This document shows, in pieces, positions 35,170 through 62,995 of a stretch of 64,000 bases of DNA (the first letter of the stretch is position 1; each line of letters begins with the position of its first letter). A program made the translations under genes and the position numbers. The notes beneath the pieces are model-generated. The model saw only the letters and a list, made by a program, of their open reading frames with translations. It was not told the DNA's origin and made no database searches. Origin of the DNA: Pythium myriotylum (taxonomy: Eukaryota; Oomycota; Peronosporomycetes; Pythiales; Pythiaceae); the NCBI GenBank assembly GCA_023091665.1, contig JALJCQ010000016.1, forward strand, positions 1,488,001 to 1,552,000, given 5' to 3'.

Positions 35170-36288
35170 TTACTCCTCCTCGGCGTCAGGTTCGTAGAAT
35201 GGCACTTCTCCGTGGGGAGTCACGCGAACGGCCTGGCGGTTGCCCGGGAGGTAGTCGAAAGTGCCGATATGGGTCGTCACGCGGTTGTCCCAGATCGCCA
35301 CGGCGTTCTTGGTCCACCGGTAGCGCACTTGGAACTCGTGCCCCTGCGCCTGGTGAGCGAAGAGAAAGCGAAGCACTGCGTCCGACTCGGCCAGCGATAG
35401 CTGCTTGATCCGCGTCGTGAAACCGTAGTTGACGAAAAGAGACTTGCGTTTAGTCACCGGGTGAGTGCGAATGATCGGGTGCTCGGTCTCCAGGTACGGA
35501 CGACGCACGGTCACACCGCTCGCAGCAGCTCGTTCGGCCTGCACCTTGCTGCTATGAATGGCCGTCAGTCCTTCTAGAAACTTCTTGAAGTGCGGCGTGA
35601 GGCGCTCGTAGGCTTCGTAACCCGACGTCCAGATCGTGTCACCGCCCTCTGGAGGCGTTGTGAGCACCTTGAAGCTCGTGTAGGACGGTGGCTGCCGCTC
35701 ATACGTCACATCGCTGTGCCAGTGATTCACCCAGCCGTACTTTTGACGCTCGATAATGCCAGGGCTGCTCTTCAACGATGCTTCGACGACCAAGACCTCG
35801 GGTTTGCCCTCTGGATGGCCGATGTTTTGGTGGATGTGCAGCGGTCCATAATACTTGCCGAGCTCCAGCTGCTGCTCAACGTTGATCTTCTGATCTAGAA
35901 AGAAAACAACGCCACGCTGCGCGACGAGCAATGCGAGTTCATCCTTCTGTGCGTCCGTGAGCTCGTGCAGCTGGATCCCTGTGAGCTGAGTGCCGATCTT
36001 TGGCGCGAGGTGCTGCACCGTCGCGTTCTCGAGCAAGTTCTTGAGCGTCGGGTCGGCGTACTTGGCGCGATCATCGAACGGCAGCTCAGGGATCGGAGGA
36101 TACGTGGTCGTCGGATAGACGCTCGCCAGCTCAGGGTGCTCAAGGGGGTTGTGGGCTACACGCTGGTTGAATGCATTCTTGATGGGTTCCACCTTGACAC
36201 TCGTCTCGACTTGCTTGAGCGAGGCATTCTTCCCAGCGTCATCGACGGCAGTCTGCGACTTGGTGGATTCAGTGTGTTGAGGGGCCAT
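35170..36288 (-). CDS. TauD/TfdA-family 2-oxoglutarate/Fe(II) dioxygenase, copy 1
   Basis: A 372-residue enzyme; the ATG at 36288 starts MAPQHTESTKS. The family couples oxidation of a small substrate (taurine, alkylsulfonates, aryloxyalkanoates or others) to decarboxylation of 2-oxoglutarate. The fold runs from about residue 85 (HLAPKIGTQLTGIQLHEL) to 365. The iron ligands are the H-x-D pair at about 191/193 (NHWHSDVTYE) and the distal His at about 340 (NRVTTHIGTFDY), followed by GNRQAVRVT with the 2-oxoglutarate-binding Arg. All are present, so the protein should be active. No signal peptide is seen, so it is probably cytosolic. It is divergent from the POT transporter at 37338, with 1,049 bp between the starts. 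It resembles copy 3 more than copy 2. The substrate cannot be told. Confidence 0.92.
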   Translation of the reverse strand: MAPQHTESTKSQTAVDDAGKNASLKQVETSVKVEPIKNAFNQRVAHNPLEHPELASVYPTTTYPPIPELPFDDRAKYADPTLKNLLENATVQHLAPKIGTQLTGIQLHELTDAQKDELALLVAQRGVVFFLDQKINVEQQLELGKYYGPLHIHQNIGHPEGKPEVLVVEASLKSSPGIIERQKYGWVNHWHSDVTYERQPPSYTSFKVLTTPPEGGDTIWTSGYEAYERLTPHFKKFLEGLTAIHSSKVQAERAAASGVTVRRPYLETEHPIIRTHPVTKRKSLFVNYGFTTRIKQLSLAESDAVLRFLFAHQAQGHEFQVRYRWTKNAVAIWDNRVTTHIGTFDYLPGNRQAVRVTPHGEVPFYEPDAEEE

Positions 36289-36317
36289 CAGCGTCTGTCT
36301 TCGTGGCGGTGATCAGC

Positions 36318-36332
36318 AAAATTCGCAACTGA
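36318..36332 (-). promoter_or_regulatory. initiator-like motif of TauD copy 1
   Basis: On -, TCAGTTGCGAATTTT resembles the oomycete initiator TCATTYYNCAWTTT and lies 29 bp before the ATG. Confidence 0.4.
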
Positions 36333-37306
36333 GGCCCATCGCCCTGGGACTCCCAAGCACCCTCAGGTTGGAGTCACATGCGTTTCAACTCAACAGTCAG
36401 CCACCATAGATCCGGAACAGATTGCGCGAACCCATTCCCGCACTCACACATCGATTCGTGACTCGAGATGGCGCTCCGAGTTTCGAGGTGCCCATCTTGA
36501 GGTTGGCTGGAGACTATCCGATGAAGCGGAACACGCCACCACATATCCAGCTTCTGATTGGTTGTCGCGGTCTCCAATAAGAGCTCTTGTGTCGAGTCGA
36601 CTGATGCAACTGAGGCAGACGACTAAGGTGCCATTGAGTCGATATCATTTCATCCCGCGAACGCCACGAGGTTGCCTCTGGTGTTGGTCATTGGCTCTAA
36701 GTAGCACCCAATCGGCGAAAGCATTTTGCGAGATTTCGAAGTGTGCATGTCTCCGGTTCTAGGAGTTGACGCAGTCCATGAGACCAAGAACCGGAGACCT
36801 GAACGTGGCGACTTCTGGGGATCTAGAGTGTGTACGAACCGGAAGACCTTGTAACGACTCCAGCTCGAAAAGCTTCGTGATTGAGTAACCCAGGCTAATG
36901 TCTTCGCAGTACGCTTTCTCGGATGCCAAGGCTCCTCTAAGAACTAGGCGAACTCTCCGCCTCTGGGTCACACCATCCGATCCCTTTCATTCAAATGGGT
37001 CCATGACGATTTGCTGCACAAATGGCGATTTGTCGGGCCTTCCTGGGCTCGTGATTGGTTGGTCACACTGACCTTTCTCTTCGACGCGTAAACCCACCGA
37101 TCTTTGTCAGGTGCGACTACCCAAGATCTACGCGTACGTTCTGTACAGAACCACGGACTCACATGGAGATTATCGCTTGACAAGGCACCGTATCTCTTGG
37201 GGAAAGGAAACTGATCCCGGCCCATCTTCATGCTTTCGTTAGTTGCTCTCTGCTAGGAGAGACCCCACCACCCGTTTGTTGTGGCTGTTCGAATTGACAG
37301 ATTGGT
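36333..37306. other. divergent intergenic region between TauD1 and POT1
   Basis: About 1 kb without a supported gene, serving as the shared upstream region of the two divergent genes. A 12-bp perfect inverted repeat (GTCTCCGGTTCT at 36749-36760 and its complement at 36787-36798) lies in the middle. Confidence 0.5.
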
Positions 37307-37320
37307 TCATTCGCCAATTC
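37307..37320 (+). promoter_or_regulatory. initiator (Inr) motif of POT transporter 1
   Basis: TCATTCGCCAATTC is a close match to the oomycete initiator and lies 17 bp before the ATG at 37338, so the leader is very short. Confidence 0.6.
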
Positions 37321-37337
37321 GACAGGTCGCCACGACC

Positions 37338-39158
37338 ATGGGGAAGCACGCCGCCTCGCCGTCGCCGGTGCTGACACCGCTCACGCAGACACCAGGCCTT
37401 GCAAACTATAGCACCAAACTCTGGGACGACCGCCCGACTCACATCAAGAAGTATATCGTGCGCAATGTGTGTCTCTTCCTCTTCATCATCACGGCCATGG
37501 AGGAGACGGCGAGTTTCTCCATGAACCAATCGCTCAAGAACATGTTCCAGAAACTTGGCTGGTCGAACAAGGGATCGAACTCCATGAAGCTCACATACGA
37601 CTCGGTTGCGCAGTTCCTCTGCATTGTCGCTGGTTACATCTCGGACGAACGCCTCGGCAAGTTCAAGACACTGCTCGGGGCCGCATCCATCGACTCGGTC
37701 GGTTTTTCATTGCTTGTGTTTGCCTCACTGCCAACGATTGTTGCCCAGCACAAGAGCCTGGCCAAGATCGTCTACTCTGTGGGACTTTACCTCGGTGTTT
37801 CGACGCAGATCAGCTTGCGCTCCATGATGCTCTCGTTTGGCGGAGACCAGTTCTCGCCCGACTCGCCACCGAAGGAGAAAGGTATCTTCTTCAGTTTCCA
37901 TTACGCTGTGGCCAACATCGGTGCCTCGTTGGGCTACGCTGTCTTCCCATACCTATGTCTTCACGGCGTCGGTGCCATCCCAGCAGCGTATGGCTATACG
38001 GCCAACTACGCTATTGCGCTGCTCTGTTTGATGGGCTTCATCACGATCCTCTACTTCACACGCAAGCGATACGTCCAAGTGCCACCCACCAAGCAGTCGA
38101 TTGGCCAGGTAATCAAGATCCTCGTGCACCGCGCCAAGACGAATTGGCGCGCACGCTTCCTCGTCAGTGGTGCCGTTCTCTATCTCGCGGCCTTTGTCAT
38201 GAACGTTCTGGCATCCTTCCTCGCTGATCACGGCGAGACGGGCCACAACATCTCCAAGGCCGGTGGTGCCTTTATCGTCGTGGCGACTGTGCTTTGGGTC
38301 TTCTTTGGGCGCGACTCGACTTTCATGGAGGGGGCAAAAGAGAGTCAAGGAGGTCGCTTCGACGAGGAGCTCGTGGACGGTGTTAAGCAGGTCATCCGCA
38401 TCTTGCCGTTCAATGCCTTCAACGTCGTCTGGTGGCTTTGCCAGAATCAGCGGTCCAACAACCAGACCATCGTGCAGCAGACCGACATGCGTATCGGCTC
38501 GGGCCCGTTCGCCACGCAGATCCCAGGTCCGACAATGCAAATGTTCAACCCGCTCAGCGTTCTCGTGCTCGTTCCGCTGTTCGACAAGTTCGTGTACCCT
38601 CTGTACGAGCGCATCACGGGCAAGCCAGCCTCGCGCTATGGCAAGATTCTCACGGGTTACTGGCTTGCGGCCTTCACGATGGTCTGGACCGGATGCTTTG
38701 AGATCATCCGCCGTAGCCGTCCCGTGCTCACCTACGTCGATGCCCACGGCGTGACGAAGTTCATCCTCAACAACGATGGTAAGCAGGTCATGAACGACAT
38801 CCCGTGGTACGCTGCAGTCCCGCAGTACTCGCTCATGGCACTTGCGAGTATCCTCATCGTGATCCCGTCGTACGACATCGGCTACTGGGAAGTTCCGCAG
38901 ACAATGCGTTCGACGTCCATCGCGCTTGGTTTCTTCGTCAACTCGATGGGCTCGACGCTTCAGTCGGTCATCGTGCTGTTGCTTGGCAAATACATCCCGG
39001 CCAATCTCAACAACGGTCACATGGAATATCTCCACTTCACGCTGGCAGGCATCATGGTTGTCAACATCTTCTTCTTCTGGATCGTCATGAAGCAGATGCA
39101 GCTCGGTATGGTGCCCAAGCTCGCCAAGAAAGACAAGCATGTTGAGTTCGTTGGATAG
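37338..39158 (+). CDS. POT/PTR-family proton-coupled transporter, copy 1
   Basis: A 606-residue protein with about 12 membrane spans. The ATG at 37338 follows the initiator directly; the open frame above it is the leader. The family moves di- and tripeptides, nitrate or other small solutes with protons. Family marks are the ETASF region in TM1 (replacing the ExxER motif of typical peptide carriers), FGGDQFSPDSPPKEK after TM4, the FFSFHYAVANIGA stretch in TM5, and the second-half motif QNQRSNNQTIVQQTDMRIG. The N-terminus MGKHAASPSPVLTPLTQTPG is shared with copy 2. The replaced ExxER motif suggests altered proton coupling or substrate. It is divergent from TauD1 and converges with the coiled-coil gene, stop codons 17 bp apart. 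The substrate is unknown; pairing with TauD suggests import of that enzyme's substrate. Confidence 0.9.
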   Translation: MGKHAASPSPVLTPLTQTPGLANYSTKLWDDRPTHIKKYIVRNVCLFLFIITAMEETASFSMNQSLKNMFQKLGWSNKGSNSMKLTYDSVAQFLCIVAGYISDERLGKFKTLLGAASIDSVGFSLLVFASLPTIVAQHKSLAKIVYSVGLYLGVSTQISLRSMMLSFGGDQFSPDSPPKEKGIFFSFHYAVANIGASLGYAVFPYLCLHGVGAIPAAYGYTANYAIALLCLMGFITILYFTRKRYVQVPPTKQSIGQVIKILVHRAKTNWRARFLVSGAVLYLAAFVMNVLASFLADHGETGHNISKAGGAFIVVATVLWVFFGRDSTFMEGAKESQGGRFDEELVDGVKQVIRILPFNAFNVVWWLCQNQRSNNQTIVQQTDMRIGSGPFATQIPGPTMQMFNPLSVLVLVPLFDKFVYPLYERITGKPASRYGKILTGYWLAAFTMVWTGCFEIIRRSRPVLTYVDAHGVTKFILNNDGKQVMNDIPWYAAVPQYSLMALASILIVIPSYDIGYWEVPQTMRSTSIALGFFVNSMGSTLQSVIVLLLGKYIPANLNNGHMEYLHFTLAGIMVVNIFFFWIVMKQMQLGMVPKLAKKDKHVEFVG

Positions 39159-39175
39159 AGACCCTTGTTCTTCCA

Positions 39176-42100
39176 TCATTCATCTATCTGTAATACATCC
39201 CCTTCCTCTTGAACATTGACGACCGCCTCAACAGACAGAAGTTGTCGACGCCTTACTTGGCGTACCCAACGTACAATGCACGTCTGGATGTAGAGGCGGC
39301 TCAAATAGTGCTGCGTGAGCTTGGCCGACTGCAGTAACTTGGCACATGCTCGCAGTTCGGTCCACGCCTTTTGAAGCGCCTGTTGGGACGTAGTTCGTGA
39401 AGGCTGTTGCTGACTTTTAGGTCGTCCTGCAATACCGTTGCTCGTTGCTGCCACTCCCGAGGGTTGCTGAGCTGTTGATTGGATATCATGAAGCAACCGC
39501 TCAATCAGTGCACTCTGTTTTTTCAGGTGCATCTTGGTGTTACGACTCTGGTGGAGTGCCTCAATCTGCAAATGGACTTCGACACGAAGTCCCCTCCAAA
39601 AACGCTGCAGGTCTTCGATCTCTCGTGTCATCGAGAAGATGTTTGTACGTCCCACCGACTGCTTGAGCTCATGGAGGTCAGCTTCGTCGAGCAACAATTC
39701 TTGCAAGCCGCTATTAAATAATCGCAAGTGGTACACGTGCGTGACTCGCAGCAGAGTGTCCAAGTCCAGCAGCTCTTGGCCCACATCGCAGAAGACGAGA
39801 AGGCATTCCCTTGGGGACACGCGATGCTGTGTCACACTCGTCACAACCTTAATGAACTGCTCGAGCCCGATGCGATTGCTAGCGGAAGCGTCGAACACCA
39901 CAAACGCTTGACGGTAGCGCTCGTCAACATGGCCGTTCACGAGTCGCCAATGCACCAAGAAGACCTCCATCAGATCATCTAGTTCAACTTTGTCACTATC
40001 TGTGTATGATAACTCTTCCACTTGCTTCAGAAGGTTGTTGATCTCCGGTCCACTGAGAAGCCGGTGGTCGAAAAGCCGAGCAGCTGTTGCGATGGCAGAT
40101 TGCTTCGAGATTGGGCATCCACCGTCGGGGGTCTCTTCAAGGCGGCATTCGGCCTTGAAAATCTTCATCTGACCAAAAAGCAAGTGTCCCAGTGCGTGAG
40201 CGTAATAGAGAAACGTGTCATAACCGTCGTTGACCATATCGGCAGTCCCTGATGTTCGGATCCCGCATGAAGCAGCAAAAAAGGCAACGCGAGGGTCGTC
40301 GTGGAACGCAAAGATCGCCTCGGACAACGAAACAATCCAGGCGCCAACAACTACTGGTGAGTCGTAACGCGTAACCAAGTAGTCGCAAACAAAAGGTGCT
40401 AGACTCCAAAGACAAGCGTTGTCTAGTTGGGCCGTGTCCACTTTAAGAAACTCGATCCACAAATCCAAGATGAAAGTCTTGGTGTGCGCACGGCTGAGCG
40501 TTGGAACGTGAAACTCAGGGGCAAAATCGTGCTGTTGGTGGTGACGCTCGAAGGTGACAACAAATGAGCGCCACATGTGGGGGAGATTCTCGACGACATG
40601 ACTCAAATCGAGAGGAGCCGCATCATCCGGTATGGAGTGTACCGTCGTGTCTGCTTCAATAACTGGCGCTGAATCGTCTTTCTTGGGTACCGAGTGGTGC
40701 GGTCGCTTTTTGATTGGAGACCCCGAAGAACCTCGACGCGCCTTTTTCCCTCTCATGCGGTGTGCTGCTGCCAGCGACGAGGAAGTAACGTGTCGCGGCT
40801 GCTGCGAAGACGCGTCGAGACTGGGGGACACACAAGAAGTAGTAGGTGGGCTGGTTTGGTACGGAAAATGTTCGTGTGGATGATAGCCAACAGTAGCAAT
40901 CGACTGAGAGATTAACGCGCGGAACACCGACGAACCACCCCGCAAATACAGACACTGGGCTCTCTTCCGCCGCGATGCTCCTTCCCTTTCTCTAGCAACG
41001 GCAATATCGGAGGGAGACGCAGCGAAGTCGAGCGCTTCAAGTTTCAGCCCAGCAGTCGTACCTGCCACAACGGCAGTAAACAAGCTAACCAACGTTTCTC
41101 CTCCTGCAAGATGCTCAGTCTACACTCAAGCAAGGTAAAAGTCAGTGCACATCAAGTAATGCTCCGAGCATGAGTGAGCACCCTACCCTGACAATGAGTG
41201 TCTCCTTGAGCATCGTGTCACTTGCAGCGACTGTCTCCACGAAGTAGTGCTTCCAAGTCTCCAAGTCGCTGGAGATGACATCTTGAATTGCCGTCGGGTG
41301 GAACTCACTTAGGCAAGTAGCGAGATACGGAGACGACTGAAGCTGATCCAACAAGTCTCGATTCGCTGGGTCCTTGAACATCTCCCGTAATAATCGTCCG
41401 ATTTCGGCCGAGTCTTCTTGAGCTATCTTCTCGAGCGATACAACAGATGCGCGTTGAATAAAGTTCTGGACCCCTTTAGTGGTCGATAGCTGGACCATCA
41501 CCTTATAGAACGAGCCAACATCACCCTTGTCGTGGAGCTCCACGAAAAGATGCTTTAAAAACTCGGGTCGTTTCAATGCAACGGCAACGAGATCATCCGT
41601 ATGGGCTGTGAACCACTCGGCAAGTTGCACCTCTCCCTGTGTTAAAGCAGACCCTCGGCCACCATCGAGAGTCGAAGACCGCCGCCCTGCCATTTCTTCC
41701 AGCACATCACTGACTGCGCCAAGTGCCGCTGAACTCCTCTGAGAACCCACAGCCCCAAGCGTATTTGGTGTAGCCACAGGGGCTCCGTTATTGGGTGTGG
41801 ACCCCCACAACAGCTGCACACCCTTATTCTTGTAAGCCAACGCATCAAGATACTCACACGCTTTGAGATCGAGCCGCAGAAATCGCTTGACAAGGGGCGC
41901 AAACTTCGTGATCGCGAACCGCAAGATGCCGTTGTTTTGGGTAATTGCGCTGAGAAGAATCTCTGGACTCTGGTTGATCGCATTTACGAGAATCGTCGGG
42001 TTCTGTCGCTGTCGCTGGATAAGAGTGCGCACAACCGAGCTCGAATTGTTTATGTCGTCGAGATCTTGAGACACGGATTCTTGCATGAGGCGTGCGTCCT

Positions 42101-43787
42101 CGCTCTTTTCAAATTTTTCCATGATGAACGATGGAGTGTCCACATAATCACAGAGGAGTTCACACAGACGCTGTTTAGCAGCAAGCAATGGGGTGGGACT
42201 TTCACCAGTTCCTAAACTTGGCCTGTTGTTGTTTGGTAGTTCTTCGCACAGCAAATCAAACACCTCCTCGCATTGACGCAAAATGTCGTCTTGTTCGTTA
42301 GAGAGTTGCTCGATGAGAAGTTGATGCTCTTCCGTGGCAGCAACGTGCTGCCCTTCGGAGAGAGCACCTAACAACACATCAGGAATGGAGGCATTAGGTG
42401 CAGTTGGCTCGGCCACTTGGGTAAGCTGGGAGTCGTCTCTGGGAGGAAAACGCGTTGACAGCATTCGTTGCCGTGATCTTGCCTTCGTAATTGTAGTAGC
42501 TCGAGGACTATCAGACCCGCTTCCCGTCGACGGAGGTCGCAACACAACGCTCGAATGGCGTGTCATAGGTGAGAGGTACATCGAGCGCCGAATAGCGGAA
42601 CGATCGCGTAATTGCTCCGACACATAGACCTCTTCAAGCGTCCTCAACACCCCTTCCAGTGAAAGGCTATCGCCACCATTGAGAGATGGTGTCAAACATT
42701 TGGAGAGTACGTCTTTCTCCTCCAAACTGAGCGTTTGCCACAACACAAGCATAAGTCGGACGCGTTCGTGCAGCACACGTGTCGCCATGACTGAAGCACG
42801 CTTGCGATGCAAAGAGAAGGATTTGGGCTTCACCGTAGCCACCGAGTCAATTTGCTCATCAGCTTCACTGATGGAGTCATCTCTTGCTAAATCTTGGCTA
42901 ACTGTGCGTTTGGCGGTCGCGTTCCACAGCAGCAGCAGAAGTTCATCGCTGAAGAATGGAGATAACACTTCTACAACCAGCTGAGGGACTTGCGTTGGCT
43001 CGTCGATGGATCCAAGGATTGCAGCCGCTAACTGAGCCTTGTCCTCGCTCGTGGTCGCTTGTTCTTCGAGATGGATAGTTGTTAGCTGAGATATCTGCGA
43101 TGACATTTGCTTTTTGCAAGAGACCAGCTCCTCTTTCACCTCGGTGAGCTGCTCGTTCAACTCTTTCGCTGCATCAGCGTGTTGCTTGAGCTCGCGCGGA
43201 TTCTTTTCCACGTCATAACCCTGGAAAATTGAATTGCCCATGGCACCAACTAAAAGATTCGTCAGCATAAGTGAAATACCGCTCGCTTCCAAGATCTTCT
43301 GCAGGATTTCTATCGCCATCAGCGAACAGATTGGGTTTGGTACGTAATCAGTCAGGGTAGAGAACCGTCCGGCCTCGGAGTGGCGCTGGAGTGCCTGCCA
43401 CAATCTTGCCATCTTGCTCTCCTCGCTCCTGCATCAATACGAGCACGATCAACAAAAAGGACAAGCTTCGCTGGCAGCGCGCTCTAGCAGCACCTACACA
43501 GTCGGATCACTGAGCTGCTGGGACCATCGAAGCAGCGTTCGATAGACGATTTCATCACCATCGACTCGTCCGCTTGCTGCATGACTAGGCGAGGAATGGT
43601 TTCTCCTTGGCGTTCCAAGCGAGGGGAGTACCGTTGGATTTGTCAACGCAGGTGGTCGCTTGGGAACTTTCGGTTCGATGAAGTTGAAGCTCGGTAGAGC
43701 CACGCCGACACTCGTCGCACGATCGAGCGGAGAGGACTCGGCGGGCTTTAGCCACACTCGTCGGCGATGGTGTCGCGTCTTGCTCAT
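39176..43787 (-). CDS. large coiled-coil protein with EF-hand-like segment, three exons
   Basis: Exons on - at 43787-43498, 43428-41187 and 41119-39176 join in frame to 1,491 residues. Introns are 69 nt (GTAGGT...GCAG) and 67 nt (GTAGGG, branch CTGAC, TGTAG). The ATG at 43787 begins MSKTRHHRRRVW; an upstream 3' splice-like TTTTTTTGTAG at 43844 could mean a further exon, so the start is tentative. The protein has a basic N-terminus, a helix-rich region with a coiled coil near residues 190-230 (KELNEQLTEVKEELVSCKKQ), a large helical core, a Ser/Arg-rich linker, an EF-hand-like segment (FVVFDASASNRIGLEQFIKV, with imperfect loop) and a basic C-terminal helix (YIQTCIVRWVRQVRRRQ) like an IQ motif. 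I do not recognise the family; a scaffold or calcium-linked role is possible. Confidence 0.65.
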
Positions 43788-43952
43788 GCCTGCAATGATT
43801 TCGCTGACATCAGTCGATCCAAATATACTTGGACAGCGCCTACAAAAAAACAAACATAAACAATCAAAATGGACCGCAAATGGTCCTTACGACGCGGGGC
43901 TTGGAGTGGTGAAAGTGTATACTCGAATACATGAGGCAGCAACGACGCTGGT

Positions 43953-43983
43953 CTAGATCACGGCTGTCTGGTGGGGCTGTTGT

Positions 43984-44015
<32 letters not shown>

Positions 44016-45302
44016 TTGCTGCTGTTGGTGCTGTTGGTGCTGAAGCTGCTGCTGTTGGTGATGGAGCTGTTGTTGCAACTGCTGCTGCTGTTGAAGCTGT
44101 TGCTGAAGCTGTTGCTGCTGGTGGTGCGCCTGTTGTTGTTGCTGCTGCTGCTGCGCTTGCTGTTGCTGCGTCGGCGTGGGTTGCAGCTGCTGCTGTGGCT
44201 GTTGCGGACGCGCCTTAAGCCGGCTCTTCATCTTGGTGAGATCAAGCTCCATGAGTTCTTGGGACCACGACCGCAGCGACTCGATCATCTTCTTCTTGAG
44301 AAACTCTTCGGCTTCACGGTCTCCATCATTGACTGCTTCCTCACCGTCGAGTCCGACGTAGGCATGCGCGTCAGCAGCACCGAGTCCACCGCCGTCTTTC
44401 TCGAGGTAGATCGTGAGGTCTTTGAAGAACCCGGCCATGTCCTTAATACCTGCTGGGAAGACCGCGCGCACGCGCTCCATGGCCTCGGCGTCTTTCTTGA
44501 GCCGCTCGCGCTCCATGGCCTCGAGCGACATGTTGCGCGCCTGCTGCTCCTTGCGGTTGCGGAGACTTCGCACCCATCCGTTCGAGCCGCGAAAGTCTTC
44601 AATGCCGAGCTCTTCGGCAAAGCGCTTGCCGACGTCGCGGATGAGCGTGTCCGAGACCGCGACTTTCTTCTCGCGGGTCACGTCGAACCAGTTCTCGACG
44701 AGTCGATTGAGCTTTTCAAACTTGGACTTTTTGTTAATGTGCTTGGAGCAGCCCGAGATGTTGTCCTTGTAGTAGGCCTTCTTGAACTCGTCCTTGCGCT
44801 TGAGGATGCGGCTGACCGTGCTCTTGTTGAGCCCGAACTGCGCCGCGAGCCGGATGCCGCTCATCGCGTCCTTGCTCGCATCCTGCTTGCCGCTTTTCGC
44901 GCCGCTTCCTCCTTTCGGGTCGTACTGGAACTCCTCGGCGAGCTCAATGAGCCGGATCTTGGTCTGCAGATCGATGCTCGCGTTCGCGCCGCTCTTGCGC
45001 TTGCGGGCCGAGCCGCCCGAGGCTCCGGCGGAGCTCGGTCGATCGAGCTTGACTTCCTCAAAGGCCGAGAGCTCGGCGTCGCTCGGGAAGTAGGCGAGCT
45101 CGGGCGGCGCGGCGCTCTGCCCGGCCTCGCTCAGCAGCGCGAGGCGCGTGTGGACAAAGCCGTGCGCCGCGCCGCCGTGCACGTGCGCGAGCAGCGTGGG
45201 CGACGGCGGCATGGCGAGCGGCACGAGCGCGTCGGGCGCCGTTGCTGCATGAGGGCCGTCGGTGAGCGCCAGCTGCAGCGCCGTCTCCTCGTGCGCGTTC
45301 AT
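43953..45302 (-). CDS. CENP-B-type HTH protein with polyglutamine tail
   Basis: A 449-residue protein; the ATG at 45302 (MNAHEETALQ) is the first in frame. Residues 1-100 are Ala/Pro-rich. Residues about 113-172 form a CENP-B N-terminal (Psq-like) helix-turn-helix (TKIRLIELAEEF, SGIRLAAQFGLNKSTVSRIL), and about 193-253 a second HTH of the Tc5/CENP-B DNA-binding type (KFEKLNRLVENWFDV, GIEDFRGSNGWVRSLRNR). This pair is the DNA-binding half of pogo-like transposases, but the DDE nuclease domain is absent and replaced by a helical region and a tail of about 85 residues that is mostly Gln. It therefore looks like a domesticated, transposase-derived DNA-binding protein, perhaps a regulator. The codons of the tail mix CAA and CAG. 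Confidence 0.8.
43973..44210 (-). repeat. CAG/CAA triplet-repeat tract (polyglutamine)
   Basis: About 240 bp of imperfect CAR repeats on -, coding for the Gln-rich tail, with His and Leu interruptions. Its length may vary among strains. Confidence 0.85.
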
Positions 45303-46294
45303 GGCGGAGGCGCGCGCCGGCGTGAAAAGGGGGGCGAACGAGTCGGCATTGCGCAACCACACGGCCCCCTGAACGAGAAACTACTGAGATTGGGGAATAG
45401 CGAGAACAACAAAAGCTGCAGCCATGTCGGGTGGGAAGACAACACGGGCCACCAGGGAGGGAATCTGGAACGGCGTGTCCCAGGGGGAACGAAAATACCT
45501 TACCAACAAAAAAACCCAAAAAAAGAATAAAATACCGATTGCGGCGCGAGCGAGGGCGTGCTTGCTCGGACTGATCGGGGCTTGTCTCGTGCTTCAGCTC
45601 GCCGGATCTGCGGAACTTATCTGCGGGATCTGAACCTCTGCTGGCGATTTGAAGTGCACGAGGTCGTGGCGACTGAAGTGCACGTTGAAGATCAGGTGGC
45701 GCAGTTGCCACCCGTGACGAGACGAAACGACGTGCTGTGTCCTCTGTCAAGCTTTTGGTGGGAGGCGATCAACGTGGTGGGGAGGGTGCCGGTCCCCTGC
45801 GGGCATTTCTTTCGCTGCGAGGAGCGTCGTTGGCTGGTGCGCCGACTAGGCCATAAGATCCGGCTCGCTCCGGAGCCGACACCCCGCCTTATCCAAACCA
45901 CGTGCTTTTTTCGGCACGGTGGCCCGTTTCTTTCCCTCGCTTTCTCTCTCTTTTTTTTCCATCTCTGTTTTGACACTTTTTTTTTTCTCCCGCCACCACT
46001 GACCATATTTTCCTTCGATATTTTTTTTTCGTCGCACTCACCGCTTTGTTTTTCGCCCTCGGTTTTGCCACGTCGACCCCGCTCCGTCCATCCAGTCAGC
46101 TCCCGACCACAACCGCCGCTCGTTTTTTGTGCCGTTAGAAAAAAATAAAATATTTTTTTTGCCGCGAATAATTTTTGTTTTGTTTCCATTTGCCTGGTCA
46201 GAACAGCTCGGCTCTTCCTCCCCCGGGACTGTAGGTACAGTGCAGTCGGCGAAAGTCGCGCCGAGCTTCACGCACTTCCCGAGAGGCCGCGACC
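45303..46294. other. divergent intergenic region
   Basis: About 1 kb between the start of the CENP-B-type gene (-) and the CSC1-like gene (+), with many T runs on + between 45905 and 46190. No gene is supported; this is likely to be promoter for both genes. Confidence 0.5.
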
Positions 46295-51802: not shown

Positions 51803-52357
51803 TGGAAGGAGCAAGAGGATCGCTAGATAGGTGTCTGAGTGTCATTTGAGTGCGAGACGAAGACGAGTATGAAGGCCCACGGCCCCGTTTACCAAATAGA
51901 CGAGAACCAAAAAAAATATAAGTTTATTGGCTTGCGTCCTTCAAGGAAAAACCAAAAAAAATTATAAAGTGAGCGAAGAGATGGTGAAGAACTCGAGGTC
52001 CTGGAGTCCACCAGCCGTGGCAAAAACGACCGGGTGGTCTATTTGACAAAACGTGACCGCCCTTGTCTTTCTTTAGCTAGATGGTATACTCAATCTCCGT
52101 GATATTACTCACTCTTCGTCGGTTGTGGGTTCATTCTCCATCCCGCTCGGTCATTGGCTGCCAATGTATCCATCTCTGGCCCGAAAAGGGGTTCGGGGAA
52201 GATTTCTGGACCCCCCCCCACGTGGGTGCACATCCGCCATACAAACTCCAAGAGTGGATACACCACCCGCCCGCCCACCCATGGCGCTCGCCCGCCCATG
52301 CGCTCATTCCCACACCCGACGCCAACGCAAGACGCCAACAAAGAGAATCGATCGACC
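51803..52357. other. intergenic and leader of MLO-like gene
   Basis: No gene supported. An upstream ATG at 52281 (ACCCATGGCG) is out of frame with the MLO-like start and overlaps it; if transcribed it could lower translation. Confidence 0.4.
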
Positions 52358-54373: not shown

Positions 54374-55085
54374 TGAATGATAACGAATACATTGACTCGA
54401 CAGCTTTTCAGACACCTCAACACCCCAGTGCATTCAGTGAAATCGTTCATGGCATGATCTTCATAGTGTCGTTGGATGAACGTGTGCATGGCATGATCTT
54501 CATGTTGTTGTTCGTCAACACGAGATCCGTATCTGACTCTTCAACGTTCCTTATCTAACGTCATGAAGCGTTGGCACTTCGATCATATTGCCGACGTCCT
54601 TGAGCCCTCCTCACCAGATCACCACCACTCCCCAAGTTACGAGCCTTCTCTTTTAGTTCATCATGGATGTGAGATGACGCTTAAAGTACAGTGCGTTATC
54701 CTGTGTTGTCGAACTCCTAAATAATACTACTTGTACAACGTCGTAAAAAAAATTGGAGTGTGTCATCTCGGACACTGAGTGACGAACCATTTCCGCATTT
54801 TCGGCTCAAGTCAGTTGGTGACGAGACAGAGAGGAGATCTTACCATACGCAGTACAAGCTGTACGAAGTGTACGTCTCACGACAACATCTGACTGGGGAT
54901 CATCTCACGTGTTTACTCTACATGCTGAATAGACCACCCTAGCTGAAGCGTGGACAAGACTCGCCTTCTTCTGTGAAAAATACTTCAAGTATACAAATCG
55001 ACTCAGAGGATAGTCTGAAGATCCTTATCGGAATTATATACACCATACGAACCAAAGAGTCTAGCTTGGGTCCCAGTTTAGAGGT
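54374..55085. other. intergenic, nothing seen
   Basis: Between the convergent MLO-like gene and POT2. Short frames only. A near-duplicate pair CATGGCATGATCTTCAT lies at about 54449 and 54488, a small local repeat. Confidence 0.5.
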
Positions 55086-56957
55086 TTACTGGGTCTTGTC
55101 GTTGACGAGCTCTGTGTTTTCCTTGGCCTGGGAGTCGTTGATGATGAGCGGTGTCTCGCCCTTGGCGTTCTTGTCAAGCTTGGGGATCATGCCAAGCTGC
55201 ATCTGGTTCATGACAAGCGTGAAGAAGAAGATGTTGACGCACATGACGCCCGCGAGCGTAAAGTGGAGGTACTCCATGTGGCCGTTGTTGAGGTTGGCCG
55301 GGATGTACTTGCCGAAGAGCAGCACGATGGCCGAGAGCAGCGTCGAGCCCATCGAGTTGACGAAGAAGCCGAGCGCGATGGACGTCGAGCGCATGGACGC
55401 CGGGACCTCCGAGTAACAAATGTCGTACGACGGGATCACAATGAAGACACCGGCGAGTGCGACGAGGAAGTAGTGCGGCAGGCCGGCGAACCACGGGATG
55501 TCGTTCATGACCTGCTTGCCGTCGTTGTTGGTGATGAACTTGGTCACGCCGTTCTCCTCGTACGTGAGCACAGGACGGCTGCGGCGAATGATCTCGAAGC
55601 AGCCCGTCCAGATCATAGCGATCACGGCGATGCAGTAGCCCGTGAGCACCTTGCCGTAGCGCGAGGCCGGCTTGCCCGCCCAGCGTTCATACAGCGGGTA
55701 GATCACACGCTCCGTGAGTGGCACGAAGAGCAGCACGCCGATCGGGTTGAACATCTGCACGGTCGGGCCCGGGATCTGGCTTGCATGTGGACCGCTGCCG
55801 AGACGCACGTCGGTCTGCTGGATGATGGACTGGTTGTTACCACGCTGGTTCTGGCAGACCCACCAGAAGACGTTGAACGCGTTGAAAGGCAGGATGCGGA
55901 TGACCTTCTTGACGCCGTCGACGAGCTCATCGTCAAACTTGCTGCCGTACGACTCCTTGACGCCTTCGAGGAAGGCGTTGTTGCGACCAAAGTAGACCCA
56001 GATGGCCGTGGCCACGACGATGACGCCGCCGGCAGCCTTGGAGATGTTGCGGCCGAGCTCACCGTGGTCCGAGTAGAAAGACGCGATGACGTTCATGAGG
56101 AAGGCCGAGAGGTAGAGCAGAAAGCCGAAGGCCACAAAACGAGCTCGCCAGTTGGTCTTGGCGCGGTGGGCGACGATCGTGAGCACCTGGCTGATCGAGC
56201 CCTTGGTCGGCGGCACATTCACGTAGCGGCTGCGCGAGATCCAGAGGAAGAATACGAAGAGCACAAGCGACGCGAGACCGATCGCAAAGTTGGTCGTGTA
56301 GCCGTACTCGGCCGGGATGGCACCGAGGCCGTGGAGAGAGACCGACGGGAAGACAGCGTAGCCGATGAACGCACCGATGTTGGCGACCCAGTAGTGGATG
56401 CTGAAGAACACACGTTTTTCTTCGAGCGGCGTAGTCGGCGAGAACTGGTCACCACCGTACGAGATCGAGACCGAGCGAAGACAGATCTGCGTGAGCGCGA
56501 CGCCGAGGAAGAGACCGACGTTGAAGATGACCTTGGCCAGTTGCTGGTGCTTGAGCACAGACGGCAGGGACGCGATGACGAGCATAGCGAAGCCGACCGA
56601 GTCGATCGACGCAGCACCGAGCAGCGTCTTGAACTTGCCGATCTTCTCATCCGAGATGTAGCCCGCGACGATACACGAGAACTGCGCGATCGCGTCGTAC
56701 GTGAGCTTCATCGAGTTGGAGCCCTTGTTCGACCAGCCGAGCTTCTGGAAAAAGTTCTTGAGCGACTGGTTGATCGCGAAACTCGCGGTCTCTTCGAAAG
56801 CCGTGATGATGAAGAGGAAGAGGCAGGCATTGCGGATCACGTGGTTCTTAAGATACGACGGGCGGTCGTCCCAGAGCTTCGTGCTGTAGTCGGCGATGCC
56901 CGGCGTCTGCGTGAGCGGTGTCAGCACGGGCGACGGCGAGGCGGCGTTCTTCCCCAT
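55086..56957 (-). CDS. POT/PTR-family proton-coupled transporter, copy 2
   Basis: A 623-residue paralogue of the transporter at 37338. The ATG at 56957 starts MGKNAASPSPVLTPLTQTPG; the frame above is the leader. Long stretches are shared with copy 1 (LGWSNKGSNSMKLTYD, KFKTLLGAASIDSVGF, FEIIRRSRPVLTY, NNDGKQVMNDIPW). The same ETASF replaces the classical ExxER motif, and GGDQFSPTTPLEEKRVFF and QNQRGNNQSIIQQTDVR are present. The C-terminal tail is 17 residues longer. It is intact, with about 12 spans. It is divergent from TauD copy 2 with 2,047 bp between starts, repeating the arrangement at 36.3-37.3 kb in mirror image. The substrate is unknown. Confidence 0.9.
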   Translation of the reverse strand: MGKNAASPSPVLTPLTQTPGIADYSTKLWDDRPSYLKNHVIRNACLFLFIITAFEETASFAINQSLKNFFQKLGWSNKGSNSMKLTYDAIAQFSCIVAGYISDEKIGKFKTLLGAASIDSVGFAMLVIASLPSVLKHQQLAKVIFNVGLFLGVALTQICLRSVSISYGGDQFSPTTPLEEKRVFFSIHYWVANIGAFIGYAVFPSVSLHGLGAIPAEYGYTTNFAIGLASLVLFVFFLWISRSRYVNVPPTKGSISQVLTIVAHRAKTNWRARFVAFGFLLYLSAFLMNVIASFYSDHGELGRNISKAAGGVIVVATAIWVYFGRNNAFLEGVKESYGSKFDDELVDGVKKVIRILPFNAFNVFWWVCQNQRGNNQSIIQQTDVRLGSGPHASQIPGPTVQMFNPIGVLLFVPLTERVIYPLYERWAGKPASRYGKVLTGYCIAVIAMIWTGCFEIIRRSRPVLTYEENGVTKFITNNDGKQVMNDIPWFAGLPHYFLVALAGVFIVIPSYDICYSEVPASMRSTSIALGFFVNSMGSTLLSAIVLLFGKYIPANLNNGHMEYLHFTLAGVMCVNIFFFTLVMNQMQLGMIPKLDKNAKGETPLIINDSQAKENTELVNDKTQ

Positions 56958-56978
56958 GGCTGATGTGTGGCACAAGGC

Positions 56979-56992
56979 GAGTCGAAGAATGA
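56979..56992 (-). promoter_or_regulatory. initiator-like motif of POT transporter 2
   Basis: On -, TCATTCTTCGACTC preceded by GC matches the oomycete initiator well and lies 21 bp before the ATG. Confidence 0.5.
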
Positions 56993-58969
56993 GCTGCGGG
57001 AAAGTCAGGCGTCTTGCGGTGGTCGGGGTCTTCCCCCCAGCAAGAAAAGCGTTTACGACACCCCTTCTGTTCAACGATCCACGCTCGGCTTGTCCATCCG
57101 TCCCTCACCGCTACGGAAGTTCACTCCTGGCTCGTCCACGACGCTGAAATGGTCACCGCCTCTCGCTGTTCCGAGTTCGCATCCAAGGAGGATGCGCACA
57201 CCCGGGGCGATTGGCTGCATGGGATCCGCCAGTCGACCAATGGCATGCCCAGGATCCTTAGACGAGCATTTTCATAAAAAGCCCGGGCTCGATGTGACCG
57301 CGGACATCCATGAGTCTTGGAGGAGGAACTTTCAGGCCGCCTCTGGTCGTCTCGACGAGAGGCGGAGAGCACTGGTTGAGCAAACAGAGTGTATCCTGTA
57401 CAGTACAGTACGGTACGCCTCCTGTACTATGTCGCTCGCTCGTCAGAATAGTGGGATCCGCCTGCGCTGACCACGAAAGGCGTGAGGCCGGCGCCACCGA
57501 GATGTTCAGAAGATGAGGCAGCCGCTTCAGCCAACGTGAAAAGCGTGATATTGCACAACCATCAACGAGGTCGTTGATGTAGACGCTCCGGAGGACTCAT
57601 CCTCGGGATCTCAGAAGAACGAGATCAACCGGAGAAGACAGGAAGACAATCTCATGTGTAGGGCTCCGTAAATGGCGATTCTCTGCGAAGAGATCGTCGC
57701 CATGTCCTCGACTACCAGAGAAGCCTTCGATCATTTGCATTCACGAGAAGGAAAGACGCTGCCTCGCGTATGCATCGCGTAGGATGGCAAACGCTTTTTC
57801 GAGCCTTGAGGATCTGGATTAAGATAAACACGATTTAGGGGGTTCTGTTCTGGTGACATGACGGCTTAGAATGGACGACTCTCATTCGACTGCAAGTCGA
57901 CTACGAGCTCGAATGGAGGCATTGGATTGGTGACTCAACTGCCAGGTCACACATGACACCAACCAATCAGAGACCGTAAAGAGGGACATATCCATTAGCG
58001 ACTGGTAAGATTCAATGAACAGGTATCACTGAAATCGCGTAGACAGGACGTAACCTTCTTTTCTAAATAAAATACTTGAATGAAAGTACGATATTACAGC
58101 AACTATACATACTATACTGATTGTTAACACTGTAAGAACAAATATGGAAGTCAAACGTGGGATCTTTGCCTTCGTGGAATGTGAGACCTTCGGTGGGCCT
58201 GGAAAACCATCCCGCACTCCCCCTCAATTGCTGCACTGAACTTGGAAATTCTAACGAACAAGTGAGCATCTTTCGTTGTTAGGAGGCCTCGGCTCATGTC
58301 TGGTACAGTACTGTAGTAGCGCTCTCGATGGTTGACAGCCCTCCTTTCGCGCTGTGAACCACCAAGACCCCCCCCCCCCACGAATCTCTCTTTCGCCTTG
58401 ACTCTAGATCTTTTTCTCGAATTTCCACCGCCCGCATCCGGATCTCTACGCATCCACAGCTGCCTGTCGTGCCGAGTGCCGCAATCGTTGATGGCAAAGC
58501 CTCTGGCTGTCTACGTGAGCAGTTCCCTCGTGCGTTCCACTCACTCATCCATCAAACTTCACCGTTTCGTCCTTGGCTCGTGCTGTTGCTGGGATGGACT
58601 CGCCACCCCGTCTCTTGGCCATTCAGATGCCGTGGAAATTGACCCTCTGCTTCCAATTCTTCTCGCCTGTCAACTTTGCACACCTCAGCCGCGAGAAGAG
58701 GAGCCCACTTCGCCTTGATCGCGTTCGTTGATTGGATTTATCGAAGAACCAATGGGCTTTCCTGCGTGCTTTGCTGTCACGCCAGACTCGACTTTCGCGA
58801 GCCGCCGAGTTTCCGGCAAAGTGTGTGGTGTGCGTCTGTGACGTGAGAGAAGAGAGCGACGTAGTGTATTACGCCATCGAATCGCGCCAACAGAGCCACG
58901 CGCCTCGACCACCTAGCGCCCGCCCAAGCGACACGCGCCTCAACAGCGGAATACGCCGATCTTTTCCCG
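56993..58969. other. divergent intergenic region between POT2 and TauD2
   Basis: About 2 kb without a supported gene. A small palindrome (ATCAACGAGGTCGTTGAT, near 57559) and a run of about 11 C near 58370 are present. The TauD2 frame is open up to 58732 but without ATG until 59005. Confidence 0.45.
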
Positions 58970-58983
58970 ACATTCGCGAATTC
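58970..58983 (+). promoter_or_regulatory. initiator-like motif of TauD copy 2
   Basis: ACATTCGCGAATTC resembles the initiator of POT1 (TCATTCGCCAATTC) and lies 21 bp before the ATG. Confidence 0.45.
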
Positions 58984-59004
58984 GCCTCCCCACGCCCAAG
59001 CGCC

Positions 59005-60075
59005 ATGGCTCCGCAAAACACCTCCACCGACGCCAAGACCGAGCAGTTGGCCGCGACTACCGGCCCGATCAAGAACGCCTTCAACCAGCACACGGAGCAC
59101 GAGATCTTTGAGCACCCGGAGCTCCACTGCGTCTTCCCAGAGACCAAGTACGATCCGATCCCCGAGCTGCCGTTCGTGGACCGTGCGCAGTTCGCGGACC
59201 CGACGCTCAAGAACCTTCTTGAACACGCGACGGTCGAGCACCTCGCGCCCAAGATTGGCACGCAGCTCACGGGCATCCAGCTCCACGAGCTCACGGACGC
59301 ACAGAAGGACGAACTCGCTTTGCTCATTGCGCAACGCGGCGTCGTCTTCCTGCTCGACCAGGAGATCACGCTCGAGCAGCAGATCGAGCTCGGCCGATAC
59401 TGGGGCCCTCTCCACGTGCACCAGAACCTGGGCCACCCGGAAGGCAAGCCCGAGGTCGTCGTGGTCGAGAACTCGGTCGAGAAGAGCGCGGCGCTGATCG
59501 AGCGCCAGCGTTTTGAGCCAACGAACGAGTGGCACAGCGATGTCTCGTGCGAGCGCCAGCCACCGTCGTACACGAGCTTCAAGCTGCTCACCAAGCCGCC
59601 AGTCGGTGGTGACACGATCTGGGCCTCGGGCTACGAGGCCTACGACCGCCTCACCGAGCCCATGAAGAAATTCGTCGAAGGTCTCACGGCCATCCACAGC
59701 AGCCGCCAGCAGGCCGAGGAGGCTGCGGCTCGTGGCTTCACGATCCGTCGTCCGTGGGTCGAGTTCCGCCACCCGGTCGTTCGCACGCACCCGGTCACCA
59801 AGCGCAAGGCGCTTTACGTGAACAAGGCGTTCACGACGCGTATCCCCGAGCTCTCGCTGAACGAGTCGGAGGCGGTGCTGAACTTCCTCTACCGCCACGT
59901 GAGCGAGGGCCACGAGTTCCAGGTGCGCTACCGCTGGAGCAAGAACGCCGTGGCGATCTGGGACAACCGCGTGACGTTCCACTACGCCACGTTCGACTAC
60001 CTCCCGGGCAACCGCCAGGCCGTGCGCGTGACGCCGCACGGCGAGATCCCGTACCTCGAGAAGGACGAGCAGTAG
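59005..60075 (+). CDS. TauD/TfdA-family 2-oxoglutarate/Fe(II) dioxygenase, copy 2
   Basis: A 356-residue paralogue of TauD1. The ATG at 59005 (GCGCCATGGCT) starts MAPQNTSTDAK, aligned with the starts of the other two copies. All active-site elements are kept: NEWHSDVSCE with the H-x-D pair, the distal His in NRVTFHYATFDY, and GNRQAVRVT. It is the most diverged of the three (HTEHEIFEHPELHCVFPETK where the others share AHNPLEHPELASV) and has the strongest GC bias at third positions, so it may be highly expressed. It is divergent from POT2 and in line with TauD3, whose start lies 1.84 kb downstream of its stop. The substrate is unknown. Confidence 0.92.
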   Translation: MAPQNTSTDAKTEQLAATTGPIKNAFNQHTEHEIFEHPELHCVFPETKYDPIPELPFVDRAQFADPTLKNLLEHATVEHLAPKIGTQLTGIQLHELTDAQKDELALLIAQRGVVFLLDQEITLEQQIELGRYWGPLHVHQNLGHPEGKPEVVVVENSVEKSAALIERQRFEPTNEWHSDVSCERQPPSYTSFKLLTKPPVGGDTIWASGYEAYDRLTEPMKKFVEGLTAIHSSRQQAEEAAARGFTIRRPWVEFRHPVVRTHPVTKRKALYVNKAFTTRIPELSLNESEAVLNFLYRHVSEGHEFQVRYRWSKNAVAIWDNRVTFHYATFDYLPGNRQAVRVTPHGEIPYLEKDEQ

Positions 60076-61915
60076 ATCGTCGTCGTTGTAGTGCAGAGTC
60101 GTTTGGAGTTTGCTGGTGGAGCCTAGGGCGACTAAATATCATTATTTTGGGAGAAAATCATGTTTACATGAGCTGTTGGCACAATTCGTGGACTTTCTAA
60201 ATGAAATGTACCGGTTGGAGAAGAGTAAATCCGAGTTTAAAGGCAGCTTGAGAGTGTAGCCATGTTACCTGGGATCTCTTTGGGAGGCCTGTAGACGAGA
60301 GAGCCGACCCATCTCCTCGCTGTTGGTGACGCGCCGCATCGACTGTCCATCATCCGAGGGCTCCGCCGAGATGTTCTGTCGTCTCCGTTAACTCGCTTGC
60401 TCGTCGTCATGGCCGAAACAATTTTTTCCTCGTGCCACCTCGCAGTTCCCGCTTCTGCGCTCCCCGACTCTGTGTTTCTGTCCGTCACACTTCAGAAAGT
60501 GCCTTCCTCATCCACTGCCGAGAGGCAGAATGCTGTTTACTCTATCAGCGTCATCATCTGCTTGTCGACAGCGGCGGAACCGCTCGCTCTCGGCGATAGA
60601 ACGGAACGAGATCCGGTTGTGGGTTTCGTCTTGTCCCGGTCGCGAAATGCAGTACCGCGCCAGTCATCAGGTGGCAACAACTCAGTATCCGTGTGACGTC
60701 GCCTGTCGTCGTGTCGGGAATGTGCCTCCCATCCACTGAGGCAGCAACTGCCTTCGCTGGCCTGAACAAGGTGTGTGGCCCACATTCCCCCGCTGCCTTG
60801 CAACCGGTCCTACTCGAAGTTCTGAGTCAATGCATGCAGAAGTTGCGCTTGTATGAGTGGAGAGAACACGAGAATCAGCAAACCATCAAGGTGATTTGAG
60901 TCTACGGCTTGTTTGTAACCCTCTTGCTTGATACACCAAAGCGATTAGCTAGGCTGTTAGTTCTCGCACTGGCCTAGACCTTGATTCGTTGTTTTCGTTG
61001 CAAACAAAAAACGACTGCAAGCACCAGCCTGGACTTTCGATCGCGGATTACAGTTCAAGATGAATTGTGTGCCCCTTCGGCGGAGAAGGTCTGTCTGAAG
61101 TCGCCCCGACTGACGTGATTGGTCTTCTCTTCTCAACGACAGGACAGCCCAGACAGAACACCTCAAAGCGACTCCTACACTGGAGTTGCATGATATTTTA
61201 CTGCAAACCACTGCTGAGCATTGGGTTGAAGGAAGTTGCCTTAGTTTCAACTGAAATCATCGACTGGATATCGCCGAGTTGCTAAAAGAAGCACGTAGAG
61301 TTCCACTGTTGAAATAAAAGTTGACAAAGATCTCCACCTAATCAGCGTTCTCGTCGCTCCTTCGGCCTAAGCGCTGTCATGAGCTACAAGGCCTTGAGCA
61401 GTGTCATTTCGTCAGAGACATTGTCCACGGGGTTACGCTGCGAGTACAACTGGTGAGGACAAATCGCTTGGAAGATTTACTACGGAGCCCACGCAATATA
61501 TCCGCATCAGACCCTCGGTAGACAACACGAAACCTTTCAAACTTAAAGGTAAGGTCTACGGCAATGAATCTCAATGAGTGGATTCGGACGGCACGGAGCC
61601 AAGACGTTGCTCTTCCGAAGAATCCCATTGAGATGGTCTTCCGCTGAGACCGAACTTATTGCGATTGGAGACCTTGAAGTTCGTCTCCATCTCCAGGTGA
61701 TTGGCTCGTTAATGTGGCCAATCGCCATGCTCACTACTGCCTGTGTCACGCTGGACGCGCCAAGGAAATGGAAAGTTGGCGATGGCGCTCACCTATCGCT
61801 TGGCGTCGTTCGGCCCATCCATGGCCCCGTGATACCCTCATCCCAATAGCCCGTAGAGATCCTTCCCAAATGTTCCGGCCCATTCGGGAAACTGCAGCCT
61901 TCCGACGACGAAACC
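60076..61915. other. intergenic between TauD2 and TauD3, nothing firm
   Basis: Short frames up to about 100 codons on both strands without matches. TauD3's leader contains CCCATTCGGGAAACT (about 61880), a weak initiator. Confidence 0.5.
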
Positions 61916-62995
61916 ATGGCACCGCTCAACAGCGACACACAGCGTTCCTCTCAGCAGCTCAAGCAGAGCGAAACGGAGCCTATCAAGAACGCGTTCAACC
62001 AGCGTGTGGCCCATAACCCACTTGAACATCCAGAGCTCGCCAGCGTCTTCCCGACGACCACGTACCCTCCGATCCCTGAGCTGCCGTTCGACGACCGCGC
62101 CAAGTACGCCGACCCGACGCTCAAGAACCTGTTAGCGAACGCGACAGTGCGCCACTTGGCGCCCAAGATTGGCACGGAGATCACGGGCGTGCAGCTGCAC
62201 GAGCTCACGGACGCGCAGAAGGATGAGCTGGCACTATTGACGGCTCATCGAGGTGTGGTGTTTTTCCGGGATCAAGAGATCAATGTCGAGCAGCAGTTGG
62301 AGCTGGGAAGATACTACGGCCCGCTGCACATCCACCAGAACCTGGGCCACCCACCGGAGAAGCCCGAGATCGTCGTCGTCGAGGCCTCAGTGGAGAAGAG
62401 TCCGGCGATGATCGAACGCCAGCTCTACGATCCCATCAACCACTGGCATAGCGACGTGACCTATGAGCGGCAGCCTCCGTCTTACACGAGTTTCAAACTG
62501 CTGACGACACCTCCCGAAGGCGGCGACACGATTTGGGCCTCGAGCTACGAGGCCTATGAGCGTCTCACACCTGCTTTCAAGAAATTTCTCGAAGGTCTCA
62601 CGGCCATCCACAGCAGCAAAGAGCAGGCTGAGGATGCTGCGGCGCGCGGACTCACGATCCGTCGACCGTACGCCGAGTTCGAGCATCCAGTGATTCGCAC
62701 ACACCCAGTGACCAAGCGCAAGGCACTCTTCGTGAACCAGGCCTTCACGACGCGCATCAAGCAGCTATCGCTGGCCGAGTCAGACGCCGTGCTCCGATTC
62801 TTGTTGGCCCACCAGGCCCAGGGCCACGAGTTCCAGGTGCGCTATCGCTGGAAGAAGAACGCTGTGGCGATCTGGGATAACCGCATCACCACACACTTTG
62901 GCACGTTCGACTACTTGCCGGGGAATCGACAAGCCGTGCGCGTAACGCCGCACGGCGAAGTGCCCTTCTACGAGCCCAACGCTGACGAGAAGTGA
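61916..62995 (+). CDS. TauD/TfdA-family 2-oxoglutarate/Fe(II) dioxygenase, copy 3
   Basis: A 359-residue enzyme with an ATG at 61916 (AACCATGGCA). It is very like TauD1: PIKNAFNQRVAHNPLEHPEL, PIPELPFDDRAKYADPTLKN and IKQLSLAESDAVLRFL are shared almost without change, though TauD1 is 25 kb away on the other strand. Iron and 2-oxoglutarate ligands are complete (NHWHSDVTYE, TTHFGTFDY, GNRQAVRVT). FFRDQEINVEQ keeps the Arg-Asp of the family where TauD1 has FFLDQK. It is in the same direction as TauD2 and should be active. A (TC)n repeat follows the stop at 63027. Confidence 0.92.
   Translation: MAPLNSDTQRSSQQLKQSETEPIKNAFNQRVAHNPLEHPELASVFPTTTYPPIPELPFDDRAKYADPTLKNLLANATVRHLAPKIGTEITGVQLHELTDAQKDELALLTAHRGVVFFRDQEINVEQQLELGRYYGPLHIHQNLGHPPEKPEIVVVEASVEKSPAMIERQLYDPINHWHSDVTYERQPPSYTSFKLLTTPPEGGDTIWASSYEAYERLTPAFKKFLEGLTAIHSSKEQAEDAAARGLTIRRPYAEFEHPVIRTHPVTKRKALFVNQAFTTRIKQLSLAESDAVLRFLLAHQAQGHEFQVRYRWKKNAVAIWDNRITTHFGTFDYLPGNRQAVRVTPHGEVPFYEPNADEK

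Follow-up and report, generated by a model that had tools for sequence, protein, structure and literature searches.

The window examined here (the whole 64,000-nucleotide stretch analysed, C16:1488001-1552000 in a 58.7-Mb Pythium myriotylum genome assembly of 55 contigs) carries two divergent gene pairs, each joining a transporter of the proton-coupled oligopeptide transporter (POT) family to a dioxygenase of the TauD family, together with a third, unpaired dioxygenase gene. The nearest named relatives of this genome's proteins, as found by protein searches, are oomycetes. Open reading frames (ORFs) and Pfam searches bear out the three TauD and two POT genes, and the arrangement that a sequence-only reading had given them, all five being intact single frames (TauD 206-215 bits, PTR2 125-126 bits):

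35170..36288, minus strand: TauD1, intact ORF of 372 amino acids (aa); Fe(II)/2-oxoglutarate dioxygenase, TauD family; PF02668, 206 bits; 83.8% to TauD3
36289..37337: TauD1/POT1 divergent intergenic stretch, 1049 bp; one initiator-like site 31 bp upstream of POT1, another 44 bp upstream of TauD1
37338..39158, plus strand: POT1, intact ORF of 606 aa; PF00854, 125 bits; predicted POT fold, without proton-coupling and peptide-binding charges
55086..56957, minus strand: POT2, intact ORF of 623 aa; PF00854, 126 bits; paralogue of POT1 (72.7%)
56958..59004: POT2/TauD2 divergent intergenic stretch, 2047 bp
59005..60075, plus strand: TauD2, intact ORF of 356 aa; PF02668, 214 bits; basal to the genome's other five TauD paralogues in the tree
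61916..62995, plus strand: TauD3, intact ORF of 359 aa; third dioxygenase, without a POT partner, 1840 bp downstream of TauD2

The mirrored copies are inverted repeats (72-83%) essentially confined to coding DNA, and TauD3 is nearer to TauD1 (83.8%) than TauD2 is (71.9%), as had been proposed. G+C content at third codon positions (GC3) is high in POT2 (0.878) and TauD2 (0.894), and lies at 0.74-0.77 in POT1, TauD1 and TauD3.

A third pair

Pfam searches of the genome returned 26 TauD and 12 POT matches. Used as a query, POT1 finds three places at 55-100% identity, the next best standing at 35-39%, while TauD3 finds six genes (64-100%) and otherwise just a single scrap of 44 residues. All nine genes of these types (three POT, six TauD) are confined to the window or to C29:429-438 kb, where the remaining four lie:

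C29, insert at about 430,250-430,310, minus strand: TauD5, split by a short retroelement end
C29:431174-432298, minus strand: TauD4, intact
C29:433125-434978, minus strand: POT3, intact
C29, from 436676, plus strand: TauD6, facing POT3 across 1697 bp; frame lost near the C-terminus

Every POT of this type (3 of 3) has a divergent TauD neighbour, although the partner of POT3, TauD6, is broken. The insert in TauD5 is a 5'-truncated retroelement end with a poly-A tail, bordered by a target-site duplication; this break and that of TauD6 are read from the assembly as it stands, and assembly error could also account for them. The 3' end of the retroelement is found at 12 places in the genome (up to 3 mismatches).

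The encoded proteins and their linkage

POT1 and POT2 exceed the PF00854 profile cut-off, and the model of POT1 has the POT fold. POT1-3 nonetheless lack the residues expected of a proton-coupled peptide transporter, namely the first Glu and the Arg of ExxER, the Lys of transmembrane helix 4 (TM4), the acid of TM7 and the Glu of TM10, all charges that the three aligned canonical POTs of the same genome retain. The sequence-only reading had seen ETASF in place of ExxER; the loss is real, and the register was wrong, the aligned position reading TAMEE in POT1, TAFEE in POT2 and QCLDG in POT3. Across the clade, ExxER has lost its first Glu and its Arg, and TM7 its acid, in 58 of 58 informative sequences; the TM10 Glu is gone from 51 of 58, and TM4 never has its Lys, 44 of the 58 carrying Arg there. 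Compared with POT/SLC15/NPF transporters such as SLC15A4, PepT2 and NRT1.1, the oomycete clade is without nearly all proton-coupling and peptide-binding charges. Natural loss of ExxER charge within the POT fold is also seen in plant NPF subfamilies that have no chargeable ExxER residues, although, unlike the oomycete clade, 95% of plant NPF sequences still have an acidic residue in TM10 (PMC6288477; papers are cited here from excerpts of their text). Because the charges that bind peptide ends are lost, the case for an amino-acid- or peptide-like substrate is weakened. POT1 had no match among viral contigs.

The dioxygenases score above the curated PF02668 cut-off, have a predicted TauD fold and carry the HxD...H motif and the Arg; they fall below the NCBIfam taurine dioxygenase model PRK09553 (TauD3 235.6 bits against a cut-off of 313). 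Escherichia coli TauD is the best fold match of the predicted models, and its catalytic and sulfonate-contact residues are kept. Compared with that enzyme (1gqw, 1os7, 1gy9), the oomycete TauDs carry about 75 extra N-terminal residues and have Leu or Ile in place of the amine-contact Tyr73. In E. coli taurine is imported by an ATP-binding cassette system, unlike the POT partner here. The nearest annotated relatives are fungal "sulfonate dioxygenases" (automatic names), and 52 oomycete and fungal sequences split from 7 bacterial ones at 100/100, a Jlp1-type grouping anchored by automatically named fungal sequences, with yeast Jlp1 itself outside the tree. Horizontal transfer of TauD from fungi to oomycetes finds no support, fungal monophyly not being rejected (p-AU, approximately unbiased test, 0.525).

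In other species, the POT search (7,997 candidates scored, best 120 of 197 matches) gave 71 oomycete-like sequences at 47-66% identity, from Phytophthora, Globisporangium, Nothophytophthora and metagenomes, after which the E-value jumps from 1e-85 to 1e-16 (vertebrates). The best 120 of 3,846 TauD matches held about 49 oomycete-like sequences, followed by fungi at about 50%. Linkage was assessed, species by species, by comparing the size of the longest contig given for each protein between POT and TauD, which reports co-location rather than orientation. Of the 15 other species having both families, 6 show identically sized contigs, and among 345 cross-species pairs there is no such agreement:

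Globisporangium polare: 16,220 bp
Phytophthora palmivora: 6,665 bp
Phytophthora oleae: 151,157 bp
Phytophthora cinnamomi: 1,328,261 bp (loose linkage, the contig being 1.3 Mb)
Phytophthora sojae: 11,587,142 bp
Phytophthora infestans: 11,760,846 bp

Close POT/TauD locus tags (PInf_008813/008814, PHYSODRAFT_324095/324096, V7S43_018039/018042) accompany these, and Phytophthora idaei has consecutive tags (PI124_g6395/g6396), though without equal-size contigs. The sequence-only reading had staked itself on linkage in related genomes; such linkage is found and, to judge from these records, looks old.

For the TauD tree we took 29 of about 49 oomycete sequences and 17 of about 71 others from the best 120 matches, with 7 of 80 bacterial loci; unnamed metagenomic sequences were counted as oomycete above 60% identity, and the genome's other TauD loci were left out. 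The POT tree holds 37 of the 71 oomycete sequences and was built with the short search only. The six TauDs of the genome and two metagenomic proteins form one clade (96/99) in which TauD2 is basal, TauD1 groups with TauD3 and TauD4 with TauD6, which confirms the earlier suggestion of more than one duplication. POT1-3 likewise form one clade (Shimodaira-Hasegawa-like approximate likelihood ratio test, SH-aLRT, 99), with POT3 on a long branch. Since both clades are lineage-specific and divergence is about equal between POT1 and POT2 (72.7%) and between TauD1 and TauD2 (71.9%), the pair was most likely copied as a unit within the P. myriotylum lineage. Independent double assembly of the pair is rejected on the strength of the single TauD (96/99) and POT (SH-aLRT 99) clades. 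The head-to-head recurrence that had been offered as repeated evidence for a unit loses that force, both trees deriving the pairs from one duplicated ancestral pair. Ratios of non-synonymous to synonymous divergence (dN/dS) of 0.08-0.36, with dS of about 0.6-1.4 (all rough values), indicate proteins under purifying selection.

Initiator-like sites (at most 3 mismatches to the consensus, within 300 bp upstream) precede TauD1, POT1, POT2, TauD3, TauD4 and TauD5, and none was found before TauD2, POT3 or TauD6; the 9 upstream regions thus give 6 hits, where 100 single-base shuffles gave 1.16 on average and never more than 5. TauD1/POT1 is the sole pair of the three with such sites at both starts. 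The claim that both window pairs are divergent with initiators at each start therefore stands for the divergence and for TauD1/POT1, and falls for POT2/TauD2, where the TauD2 side is empty. No word of 10 or 11 bases is shared by all three divergent stretches; common to them are two overlapping 9-mers, against 0.3 on average, and at most 2 in 60, by chance.

A candidate unit for organosulfonate use

On balance, we favour reading this duplicated pair as an old oomycete unit that imports an organosulfonate and desulfonates it oxygenolytically. A POT-derived carrier whose peptide-type chemistry is gone would import an organic sulfonate, or a close sulfur ester; the TauD/Jlp1-type dioxygenase, using Fe(II), O2 and 2-oxoglutarate, would hydroxylate the carbon adjoining the sulfur; the product would break into sulfite and an aldehyde; and an assimilatory sulfite reductase would reduce the sulfite. 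That reductase is encoded elsewhere in the genome (PRK13504, 760 bits against a cut-off of 457), so released sulfite could be used. Along with this gene, the identity of the paired genes, their predicted folds, the catalytic residues, the POT charge loss, the linkage and the purifying selection are directly supported. We infer the substrate class, the direction of transport, the co-regulation and the coupling of POT to TauD.

The closest counterpart is fungal. Jlp1 is a verified yeast sulfonate dioxygenase (PMC5857272). According to Holt et al., Jlp1 orthologues in fungi sit together with the gene of a predicted transporter, and the yeast orthologue of that transporter, Soa1, was shown in their study to carry sulfonates (PMC5303821). 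The idea of import and oxidation fits this fungal biology: in oomycetes, too, the dioxygenase gene adjoins and diverges from the transporter gene (three pairs, one TauD broken). Unlike the fungal pair, the oomycete unit is present three times in one genome and its transporter is a PF00854 protein, outside the Soa1 family. Soa1 itself we take to belong to an allantoate-permease-like family of the major facilitator superfamily.

A fuller version, to which we give somewhat less than an even chance, is that a POT clade, having abandoned proton-coupled peptide chemistry with the loss or change of five charges, became an organosulfonate carrier in a fungal-style divergent unit, was kept beside the dioxygenase since before Phytophthora and Globisporangium split, and was multiplied with it as a unit. 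If true, no earlier sulfonate carrier of the POT fold would be known to us, and fungi and oomycetes, alike in look and life, would have reached the same two-gene plan with different transporter families. It would also offer a handle on sulfur acquisition by soil and plant-associated oomycetes, and a natural experiment in a peptide transporter's loss of its proton-coupling residues.

Several observations call for caution. In Candida, one of five Jlp1 homologues is required for taurine use under hypoxia and the tested Soa1 homologues are dispensable (PMC13170222), so neither the enzyme's nor the transporter's role transfers by homology alone. The present genome supplies one independent case of POT/TauD adjacency, and 9 of the 15 other species gave no size match, which is weak evidence against linkage since each protein record gives only its cluster's longest contig. 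Relative to what was first claimed, the finding is stronger for the third pair, the linkage in other species and the systematic POT charge loss, and weaker for the non-independent pairs, the misplaced motif and the both-start initiators confined to one pair.

Two alternative substrate classes are, we think, unlikely, and about equally so. Instead of a C-sulfonate, the unit might handle a sulfated glycoside, or a plant or soil sulfate ester from which it would release sulfate as AtsK does; the nearest annotated relatives, however, are named sulfonate dioxygenases, if automatically, and AtsK ranks below E. coli TauD in both fold and sequence. Or it might import and oxidise, for nutrition or detoxification, a carboxylate, a xenobiotic or plant hormone-like compound (as TfdA, RdpA or AAD-1 would) or a purine (as xanthine dioxygenase would). 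Against this stand the names of the fungal relatives and an identity of 33%, where the table that gives it, covering sequences other than xanthine dioxygenase, has TauD at 40%. Less probable again is specialised metabolism, in which the dioxygenase makes a product that the altered POT exports: the charge loss in 58 of 58 informative sequences could suit a facilitator or exporter, and both families are multi-copy in Phytophthora too, but no biosynthetic enzyme was recognised in the subset of neighbours scanned (five in the window, two on C29). That the adjacency is a functionless chance linkage carried by segmental duplication is very improbable, for although every copy found here descends from a single pair specific to the lineage, POT and TauD are also linked in Phytophthora and Globisporangium, and GC3 matches within pairs (0.878/0.894 against 0.768/0.743), consistent with long co-residence.

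Among the matches listed (best 120 of 197 for POT, best 120 of 3,846 for TauD), none bears the name of a downy mildew or of Albugo or Saprolegnia, and a neighbouring-gene search of the same database does return Hyaloperonospora, Peronospora and Albugo proteins, a hint only that both families are absent from downy mildews and Albugo. In Hyaloperonospora arabidopsidis and Plasmopara halstedii sulfite reductase went undetected, and in Peronospora effusa and one Peronospora tabacina isolate it is present (PMC6264045); the downy mildew pattern is suggestive of a match with loss of sulfonate use. Three Peronospora species have two POT-family genes each (PMC10234565). A loss of both families tied to obligate biotrophy would be testable. 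By title or abstract opening, with subscription papers partly covered and some listings cut short (20 of 57, 15 of 73 and 12 of 42 entries), we found no description of a TauD/POT unit in oomycetes. The excerpts of four oomycete papers (PMC6493774, PMC10234565, PMC5795050, PMC6264045) do not mention taurine, nor does that of PMC6264045 mention TauD, and that of PMC5635513 mentions neither POT, oligopeptide nor dioxygenase.

Other members of the two families lie elsewhere in the genome. Seventeen further TauD matches fall on C11 (12), C22 (2) and C7 (3), 15 of them in frames of 571-694 aa; the three of these loci that were scanned are all DIT1_PvcA-TauD fusions, as in isocyanide synthase/dioxygenase proteins, and isocyanide synthases are known from 10 oomycete species (PMC5974471). 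Five PTR2 matches cluster at C6:1176774-1205560, at 25-28% to POT1, some in pieces or with stops, perhaps from introns. Within the window, positions 43951-44208 are CTG/TTG-rich and encode a long glutamine-rich run within the minus-strand frame 43953-45380.
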